Assembly (NCBI GenBank): GCA_020628615.1
Contig: JAHDEV010000008.1
Coordinates: 1 to 32,671 of the forward strand
Source of the DNA: Dokdonia sp.
GTDB lineage: Bacteria; Bacteroidota; Bacteroidia; Flavobacteriales; Flavobacteriaceae
Reading direction: 5' to 3'
Length of the DNA stretch: 32,671 nucleotides
The notes under the pieces were generated by a model. It searched no databases, was not told the origin of the DNA, and saw nothing but the letters and a program-made list of their open reading frames with translations. A program made the translations under genes and the position numbers. Below, piece after piece: positions 29,474-32,388 of this stretch. How positions within the stretch are numbered: the stretch's first letter is position 1; each line of letters opens with the position of its first letter.

Positions 29474-30202
29474 TTAACGTGCAGAAATGGGAAGTACAAA
29501 GAGTGTTATGACCAGTGCACAAGCTATTGCAATGGCAAAACTGAGCATTGTACCTATTAAAACATATTCTGTTTTAAGGTAATCACCATCTTTAAATCTT
29601 AATATGGATTTTGCGGTAATTAAAAAGCCTACAGCACTAAACTGGCCAATAATAATAAGTACAAGCACGAGCCAGCGCTCTGTGATACCTATGAGTCTGC
29701 CTGCATTGGGTAAGTCTTGTGACTTCTCTGTAAACGATACAGAGAAGAGCGTAAAAATTTCCTTGATAAGGATATTTGCCGGCTTTGTACATAATAAAAA
29801 TACTGCAATAAGGCAGATGTATGTAAGGTGTGTAGTGTCTATAAGTATAGGTTGCCACTGTATAAATTGTATAAAGGCAATACTTACTAGTGCGTATATA
29901 AGAATGTGCAATAACTGATCTATAAAAAAGGCTCCTTTATGTAGTCTTTTACTAGCAAGCATTTGAGGTTTAAAACCGTCTATCACCCAGTGTAATGCAC
30001 CTATGAGTATGGCTGCAGGAAGAAATCTATAATCAAAAGAGAGTAGGTAAGAGCACACAAAAACAATTAATATATGCCATTTTAGATACTTGCTTTTAAA
30101 ACCCTTTTTTGCCTTAGATTTTGCTGTTTTCTTTGATTGAAAAGTATAGTCTGCTAGTAAGTGAGCTATAGTCTGTAGGGCGATTAAGGTTACTATTTCC
30201 AT
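29474..30202 (-). CDS. DUF3307-like integral membrane protein
   Basis: IAHLLADYTFQSKKTAKSKAKKG...LHWVIDGFK pattern; TAATG overlap with the upstream gene. Confidence 0.82.
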   Translation of the reverse strand: MEIVTLIALQTIAHLLADYTFQSKKTAKSKAKKGFKSKYLKWHILIVFVCSYLLSFDYRFLPAAILIGALHWVIDGFKPQMLASKRLHKGAFFIDQLLHILIYALVSIAFIQFIQWQPILIDTTHLTYICLIAVFLLCTKPANILIKEIFTLFSVSFTEKSQDLPNAGRLIGITERWLVLVLIIIGQFSAVGFLITAKSILRFKDGDYLKTEYVLIGTMLSFAIAIACALVITLFVLPISAR

Positions 30203-30894
30203 TATTTAACAGTGCTTAAAAGATGAGAAAAATAACGAATGGATTTATCCATACCGTTCCACCCAGAGGCGGTTGAGTGTTGGTTTATAGATGACTGGCT
30301 CACAGATAACTGCTTTGCAATGGCTTTCTCACTATTACCCATAATTTTTAAAAACAACACTTCATTTTGTCTACTAGTAGCTCTGGCTAGTAAATGGTCT
30401 AGTAGAGCTATTATGGTTTCTATATTAAAAGTGAGCTCCTCGTTATCTGAGCTAAAGAATAGTGTGTTTTTTATAACCATACGCTCCTTGTTGTGTGTAC
30501 TCTCGTCGCTTATAGCGCGACCACTTCTATAGATGGCGTCGCCATCTATGATATTATTTGCAATATCAAAACGATCTAAAGTACCTAGACCCATTGCCAG
30601 GCGTATGCTGTACGTCTGGAATACTTTTGATCTATTATTTTCTGGTTTATCTTCTATTTCTAGTGACTTAATAAAAGTCTTTATAGCGAGCATTACAGAG
30701 AGTCCATTTGCAGGATCTGGCACAACACACTCTAGGTAGTCACCCTTTATGAGTCTAGAGAAGGTATTGAATTTTTCTTTAAGCTGGTCAAACAGTTTGT
30801 ACAGTGATTGCTCAAGAGTTTTCTTTTCATCTGTACTTAAACTTGTATAAGCAATAAAGTCTCCAGATATAACGATATGTTGTTTGTCTTTCAC
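30202..30894 (-). CDS. SatD-like regulatory protein with C-terminal HTH
   Basis: VISGDFIAYTSLS...FSRLIKGDYLECVV N-terminus; NSEKAIAKQLSVSQSSINQHSTASGW HTH at the C-terminus. Confidence 0.75.
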   Translation of the reverse strand: MKDKQHIVISGDFIAYTSLSTDEKKTLEQSLYKLFDQLKEKFNTFSRLIKGDYLECVVPDPANGLSVMLAIKTFIKSLEIEDKPENNRSKVFQTYSIRLAMGLGTLDRFDIANNIIDGDAIYRSGRAISDESTHNKERMVIKNTLFFSSDNEELTFNIETIIALLDHLLARATSRQNEVLFLKIMGNSEKAIAKQLSVSQSSINQHSTASGWNGMDKSIRYFSHLLSTVK

Positions 30895-30917
30895 TTAGAT
30901 AGTTTAATTATTCAAAT

Positions 30918-30994
30918 ATAAGCATATTTACTTATATAATTATTTTATAAGTGTATTTACTTATAAATGTAGTTTATAAGTTTTTTAGCTTATA
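30918..30994. promoter_or_regulatory. Three-copy palindromic operator array ATAAG-N9-CTTATA, 29-bp period
   Basis: ataagcatatttacttata (30918-30936), ataagtgtatttacttata (30947-30965), ataagttttttagcttata (30976-30994). Confidence 0.75.
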
Positions 30995-30996
30995 GA

Positions 30997-32388
30997 TTAA
31001 TGTTTACTATGTACAATTGTTCCGTTTTTGATAACCAGCCAGATATCCTCGGTCGCTTTGATGTCTCTAAGCGGATTACTATTTAAAATTACAAGGTCTG
31101 CGATACCTCCTTTTTTAAATTGATACAAAGGTTTATTTAAAAAATGTGCCCCATCATACATACTACTAAGCGCAGTACTTGTAGCTATACCTGCTCTAGT
31201 CATCTCTCTTAGTTCGCCGTGTAGTGATGGGCCGGGATATGTATAAGCATTATAAGCTCCACTATCAGATCCAGATAGTAGGGTAACACCTGCATCATCT
31301 AGTTTTTTTGCAAGCTGTAAAAAGAATTCTTGCAAGTCCTTTCTATTTTGTTTTGCTTCATCACTAGCATTTAATGCACTGTTTATTCTCCCATTATAAG
31401 TTGTGATAAAATCTTTTTCTAATAGAGCTAAGTAAGCGTCATTGCTATGATCTACCTCGTCCATATAGCTCAGAATGTCGCCTATAAAAAGGGTAGGAGT
31501 GACATATACATTATGGTCTTTAAGTTTTTTAAAAGTGCGCTGCGCGGTATCTTCATCATAGGTTTCTATAAGTTGAGCCATACTGTTCCAAAAGCCTAGT
31601 TTACCTTCTTTTATTTGTGCTGTGATTTCTTTTTCTTGAGAAGAGCAACCCTTTAAGATGTAATACAGATGCTCGATATTATCAATTCCTGCATCTATAG
31701 TTTCATCAAGCGTTACGGTAAATGGCATATGTCCAGAAGTTATCATACCGCGAGACTCTGCTTGTTTTATGATCTCTAGATATTGCTCGCCAGAGAGTGT
31801 ACTGTCATAAAGCTTTACATAATCTACATTTATAGATTGTAATGAGTCTAGGGCTTTGCTTATCTCATCACTGTTAGAAACACCTATAGAGCCTGCCCAG
31901 CGTGCATTTTTGCCATCTAGCTTAGGTCCAGAGGTATAAATAGTAGGACCTATGCGTGTGCCATTTTGTATCTCTTTGTTCCACTGCTGTACTTGTGGTG
32001 TGAGATCACCACCTGCATCTCTTACAGTAGTGACACCGTACTTAATAAATTGCTTTAAAAAAAGTTCGTTTTGAGTAACCAGTTGAGCCCCTCCTCTAAA
32101 GTGTGTGTGATTATCCCAAAATCCAAGTAAAATATACTTGCCACTACCATCTATCTCCTTTGTGGCAAATAAGGATTTTGAAGTGTCCATCGGGTCAATT
32201 TCGGCTATTAATCCATCTTTAATATAAACTGTATAAAGATCGCCATCGCTTATTCCTTTTTCATTTATAATCGTGATGTTCTTTATAGCGAGGTCATATG
32301 TATTTTGGGTAGTTTGCTCTTGACAAGCGCTTAGAAAACTAAGACCTACAAAAGCAATTAAATAATAGAAGCGTACAGATAGATTCAT
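30997..32388 (-). CDS. Amidohydrolase family lipoprotein (imidazolonepropionase-like)
   Basis: GFWDNHTHFRGG, GHMPFTVTLDETIDAGIDNIEHL, LLSGSDSGA and GGIADLVILNSNPL. Confidence 0.92.
   Translation of the reverse strand: MNLSVRFYYLIAFVGLSFLSACQEQTTQNTYDLAIKNITIINEKGISDGDLYTVYIKDGLIAEIDPMDTSKSLFATKEIDGSGKYILLGFWDNHTHFRGGAQLVTQNELFLKQFIKYGVTTVRDAGGDLTPQVQQWNKEIQNGTRIGPTIYTSGPKLDGKNARWAGSIGVSNSDEISKALDSLQSINVDYVKLYDSTLSGEQYLEIIKQAESRGMITSGHMPFTVTLDETIDAGIDNIEHLYYILKGCSSQEKEITAQIKEGKLGFWNSMAQLIETYDEDTAQRTFKKLKDHNVYVTPTLFIGDILSYMDEVDHSNDAYLALLEKDFITTYNGRINSALNASDEAKQNRKDLQEFFLQLAKKLDDAGVTLLSGSDSGAYNAYTYPGPSLHGELREMTRAGIATSTALSSMYDGAHFLNKPLYQFKKGGIADLVILNSNPLRDIKATEDIWLVIKNGTIVHSKH

Follow-up and report, generated by a model that had tools for sequence, protein, structure and literature searches.

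The palindrome array and the genes that flank it

The window analyzed here, the whole 32,671-bp stretch of a Dokdonia sp. contig, contains a two-gene operon on the minus strand that encodes a SatD-like protein and a DUF3307 membrane protein. The gap between this operon and an upstream amidohydrolase-like gene, whose frame ends at 30997, is filled by three perfect TATAAG-N8-CTTATA 20-mers, located by exact pattern match and spaced 29 and 29 bp from start to start, with the third ending 2 bp short of the stop codon of the upstream gene. The features of the locus are as follows.

29474..30202, minus strand: DUF3307 multi-helix membrane protein (PF11750, E 8.6e-23); its start overlaps the regulator stop (TAATG)
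30202..30894, minus strand: SatD-like regulator, GTG start; cyclase-like domain at residues ~5-150, C-terminal HTH at ~152-226
30268..30297, minus strand: predicted recognition helix, codons 200-209 (structure model; covariation at residues 202 and 205)
30913..30920, minus strand: predicted -7 promoter element, TATATTTG against the consensus TANNTTTG; overlaps an arm of palindrome 1
30917..30936, no strand: putative operator palindrome 1, promoter-proximal, TATAAGCATATTTACTTATA; exact pattern match; spans roughly -9 to -28 relative to the predicted promoter
30946..30965, no strand: putative operator palindrome 2, TATAAGTGTATTTACTTATA; exact pattern match; 29 bp from palindrome 1
30975..30994, no strand: putative operator palindrome 3, distal, TATAAGTTTTTTAGCTTATA; exact pattern match; 29 bp from palindrome 2

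A previous sequence-only reading of the window had reported three palindromes in exact 29-bp steps upstream of the operon, and this held under exact pattern matching, as did the gene order, the regulator start at 30894 (a GTG) and the overlap of its stop with the DUF3307 start (TAATG). The N9 spacer that it gave to the palindromes failed: the true spacer is N8, and the N9 pattern is not matched at the array even with two mismatches.

A pattern search of the whole window revealed no further exact 20-mers, and an unbiased scan of its 32.7 kb at any period of 20-45 bp revealed no second triple tandem palindrome array. A genome-wide search of the kind proposed in the earlier reading places the 18-mer core, ATAAG-N8-CTTAT, at only three other sites, all single, in the 2.7 Mb Dokdonia sp. 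source assembly. Since this assembly is only ~77% complete, the array search was redone in complete relatives. In seven Dokdonia genomes with the SatD-like gene, arrays are found at this locus and nowhere else, with scattered single sites at about the control level, and a genome without the SatD-like gene (G008) shows no array and one isolated site.

As a separate observation, the window holds 11 copies of a perfect 14-bp palindrome, GCTTTCGCGAAAGC (positions 680, 2996, 4960, 8088, 11925, 14343, 19525, 24983, 27864, 29348, and 32418). The count for the 2.7 Mb assembly is 737, with no occurrences in shuffles or for the reversed pattern. In its high iteration, GCTTTCGCGAAAGC resembles the HIP1 element of cyanobacteria.

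The SatD-like regulator and its DUF3307 partner

The structure model of the regulator (pLDDT 90.7, pTM 0.90) combines an N-terminal class III cyclase-like domain with a C-terminal four-helix HTH. In Foldseek, the top PDB matches of the N-terminal domain are class III cyclases (E 3.7e-4, probability 1.0), and a PDB sequence search returns HTH-only matches apart from the cyclase 3mr7, which is matched weakly (E 0.7). Against Pfam GerE, the HTH scores 21.4 bits (E 2e-4), below the curated cut-off of 23.5. Both metal-binding aspartates, D12 and D52, are kept in 187 of 188 sequences, but the catalytic Asn/Arg pair criterion, mapped by motif and not on a superposed active site, is unmet, since positions 122 and 126 vary and R126 is present in only 94 of the 188. 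Cyclase activity is therefore not implied, and the retention of D12 and D52 without the catalytic Arg is better fitted by a nucleotide-binding sensor than by an enzyme, a possibility advanced here as no more than a suggestion.

As regards the SatD-like label, taken over from the earlier reading, the window protein itself does not match PF16264 at E up to 1; the family is matched by 19 of 38 homologues at E up to 0.1, and several homologues exceed the cut-off of 29 near full length (L045, 33.5 bits; L040, 31.8; L035, 29.9). A PF16264 profile search of the protein's own genome also returned no match, but the controls were equally blank and the search is hence uninformative. The regulator is present in 246 of 400 sampled Flavobacteriaceae genomes.

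The partner protein scores 81.2 bits against PF11750 (cut-off 23). A DUF3307-like gene lies directly downstream and on the same strand in all 89 loci with long flanks, usually overlapping or a few bases apart, whereas the upstream neighbors of the pair and its array fall into 42 gene clusters across these 89 loci. This constancy on one side and variety on the other indicate that regulator, array and membrane protein travel as a unit. Within the genus the pair is patchy, occurring in 10 of 18 genomes. The DUF3307 structure model (pLDDT 89.6) has no significant match among solved structures in Foldseek (best E 0.95). DUF3307 appears in the literature searched only as a phage ORF annotation, and both families have almost no literature.

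Several further observations concern these proteins. The predicted helices of DUF3307 proteins have a set of conserved polar residues in common (H14, D18, Q22, H43, H71, D75, D95, Q96, and H99). These proteins also share a C-terminal block (NAGRxIGIxER...AAKSILRF...TEYVLIGT), and they match the phage family phrog_2470, of the category moron/host takeover. Assignment to a known anti-phage defence system was considered and rejected: PADLOC makes no assignment, the regulator matches the CARF3 model only over its HTH region (3.4e-4), and the DUF3307 protein matches none.

Conservation of the array across the Bacteroidota

Homologues were gathered at genus, family, order and phylum level, and 188 distinct loci were analyzed. 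At least three tandem palindromes with agreeing arms are present in 134 of 187 homologous upstream regions from the Bacteroidota, all but one of them (133) at a period of 28 or 29, against 16 arrays, two of them at 28 or 29, in 935 dinucleotide-shuffled controls. When 102 upstream regions were scanned for three tandem palindromes at periods 22-45 with no sequence assumed, the best period was 29 in ~51 regions and 28 in ~28, with 3 to 6 shuffles at each of these periods. Period 29 is seen mostly with long-form proteins and period 28 mostly with forms of ~205 residues; three copies per array are commonest, followed by four, with a few longer arrays reaching up to six or seven copies (L163). About a quarter of the homologous regions show no strong array at the threshold used, and GC-rich Chlorobi-like members are apparently without arrays. 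An absence of sites upstream of orthologous operons, which would have refuted the earlier reading, was thus checked for and is not what is observed, since arrays are conserved there. The array, its conservation and its restriction to this promoter are in this sense shown, by computation.

Nearly all palindromes conform to TAT-XYZ-N8-X'Y'Z'-ATA, a geometry that stays constant while the XYZ triplet depends on lineage (AAG, TAG, AGG, TCC, CGT, CGG, CAC, CTG, TAC, ATG, and others). The constancy of TAT is in part built in, as this motif decided which of the alternative dyads was taken; XYZ played no role in that choice.

It could be argued that the palindromes are not operators at all, but form a terminator or attenuator hairpin, belong to a selfish repeat or arose by chance in A+T-rich sequence. 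They are indeed A+T-rich and lie between two same-strand genes, so that chance palindromes would be expected to be commoner than usual. Against this, the period remains fixed at 28/29 bp while the sequence changes, such arrays occur nowhere else in the window, and the palindromes are located upstream of the predicted -7 element, and therefore mostly outside the operon's transcript. Taken together, we regard this explanation as all but excluded.

Covariation of the recognition helix with the operator

Were the palindromes bound by the adjacent protein, one would expect its recognition helix to vary with XYZ. Every 9-residue window of the protein was compared with operator distance, controlling for the distance between N-terminal domains. 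Residues 199-207 constitute the best window in the whole protein, with a partial r of 0.446 that none of 500 permutations reaches, whether free or within clades. For windows outside the HTH the median is close to zero and the highest value 0.27. Among single residues, 205 ranks first (0.547). A co-change test based on parsimony and on a tree inferred from the N-terminal domain alone, with 47 operator changes, identifies residues 202 and 205 as the two strongest co-changing positions in the protein: 15 of 20 changes at residue 202 (expected 3.6, p 6e-9) and 19 of 33 at residue 205 (expected 5.9, p 3e-8) coincide with operator changes. Given that branches were taken as exchangeable and parsimony was used, these p values are only guides.

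The residue-to-triplet code is in part simple. Glu or Asp at position 205 accompanies CGG, CGT, CTG or CGA in 18 of 19 cases, Lys accompanies TCC in 16 of 21, and Gln or Leu accompanies AAG or TAG in 57 of 64. This covariation is shown, again by computation, and makes it very likely that the SatD-like protein reads its own operators, with binding itself remaining an inference.

A correlation with operator class across loci is also seen at residue 126, where the cyclase-like SGR motif has its Arg (R in 94 and E in 55 of 188 sequences); this residue is not among the co-changing positions on the tree, and its correlation is hence probably a clade or subfamily effect.

An alternative explanation is that an unlinked regulator binds the palindromes, with the SatD-like protein as merely its target. 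The sub-threshold score of the window HTH against GerE (21.4 versus 23.5 bits) could be read in its favor. However, on the tree the operator triplets change together with the recognition helix encoded next to them, the genome without the gene has no array (G008), and across 89 loci the pair and its array are found next to 42 different clusters of upstream genes. We therefore consider this alternative very unlikely.

Promoter geometry

The -7 element of the Bacteroidota has the consensus TANNTTTG at positions -12 to -5, with its last G at -5 (PMC6847099). On the minus strand of the window, CTTATATTTG links the arm of palindrome 1 to TATATTTG (30913-30920), and the match of the latter to the consensus, with the last G set at -5, predicts a +1 near 30908. 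Palindrome 1 would then span roughly -9 to -28 and sit between the two core elements of the promoter. A -7 motif is found in 89 of 142 homologous arrays, most commonly 8 bp past the dyad in 28-bp arrays (31 loci) and 6 bp past it in 29-bp arrays (22 loci). The location of palindrome 1 between core elements and the prevalence of these offsets favor occlusion of RNA polymerase, and thus repression, as the inferred mode of action. Because the -7 motif of some loci sits at another place or was not found, the arrangement of operator and promoter is variable, and activation cannot be ruled out.

By eye, the region upstream of the distant homologue L163 consists of seven near-identical 29-bp units, most of them ending in TATATTTG, and each unit could conceivably be a promoter itself.

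In the corresponding rival model, the SatD-like protein binds the array but activates transcription or exerts homeostatic dual control, and RNA polymerase is recruited by the distal sites. Some loci do have palindromes well upstream of the start and a -7 motif in the spacer between palindromes (lattice offsets 15-18, period 29), and arrays of six or seven copies reach far upstream (L163). The placement of palindrome 1 of the window at about -9 to -28, between the core elements, and the predominance of offsets 6 or 8 favor occlusion instead, and we deem an activating role unlikely.

A proposed model of autorepression

The evidence is best explained by a model, which we hold to be very likely even though there are no binding or expression data, in which the palindromes are operators of the SatD-like protein, which represses its own operon under ligand control of binding. 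One dimer of the SatD-like HTH would bind each palindrome, with the recognition helix reading the XYZ triplet of TAT-XYZ-N8. Spaced at a constant 28-29 bp, the bound dimers would line the core promoter and turn off SatD-like/DUF3307 transcription. The cyclase-like N-terminal domain, with its aspartates kept, would probably sense a metal-bound nucleotide, which may relieve or tighten binding, so that the DUF3307 membrane protein would be produced on demand. Direct binding, the stoichiometry of one dimer per palindrome, repression over activation and ligand control are all inferred from sequence alone.

Autoregulation by the SatD-like HTH protein had been a guess in the sequence-only reading. 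It is now supported by comparative evidence, because the arrays are conserved at homologous operons, are restricted to this locus in complete Dokdonia genomes and change along with the recognition helix, with no binding data and with the sign of regulation inferred. The accompanying claim of cooperative binding, drawn from the regular spacing, is plausible but has not been shown. At 10.5 bp per turn, a step of 29 bp amounts to ~2.76 helical turns and rotates successive sites by ~85 degrees, so neighboring sites face different sides of B-DNA, and the spacing does not imply simple same-face cooperativity.

A bolder reading remains possible, though less likely than not, in which SatD-like proteins are nucleotide-responsive transcription factors. 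On phased operator arrays they would assemble into an ordered, spiral filament, and a DUF3307 membrane effector would be under their control. If true, it would define an undescribed nucleotide-to-membrane signaling module, common in the Bacteroidota and endowed with a readable residue-to-base specificity code.

These results provide an experimental handle on two families with scant documentation. They yield exact operator predictions for well over a hundred genomes, together with a residue-to-base code open to testing by single substitutions. The preservation of pitch while sequence drifts offers a clean natural case of co-evolution between transcription factor and operator, and the system supplies candidate orthogonal repressor-operator pairs native to the Bacteroidota.

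Comparison with known systems

The SatD family (PF16264) is named for a streptococcal secretion and acid tolerance locus. Its sole mention found in the literature searched is related to acid resistance (PMC10326533), and no description of SatD as a DNA-binding autoregulator or as cyclase-like was found there. The proteins described here resemble this family in that several homologues score above its cut-off, and differ from it in that the window protein is unmatched. With class III nucleotidyl cyclases (5mbg, Ma1120 4wp9, Cya2) they share the N-terminal fold and both metal-binding aspartates, but the position of the transition-state Arg (R126) is conserved in just 94 of 188 sequences and that of the Asn varies.

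The pairing of domains is itself not new, since Mycobacterium proteins that join a cyclase homology domain (CHD) and a LuxR-type HTH in a single chain are on record (PMC3466318). That census covers only the Actinobacteria, and the relevant passages do not mention an operator array (PMC3466318), whereas the Bacteroidota regulators are short two-domain proteins with DUF3307 as their partner. Autoregulatory one-component repressors with multiple operators typically consist of an HTH protein and palindromic sites over its own promoter. The arrangement described here differs from them in its three to seven tandem sites, held at a near-invariant pitch across a phylum under a changing recognition triplet.
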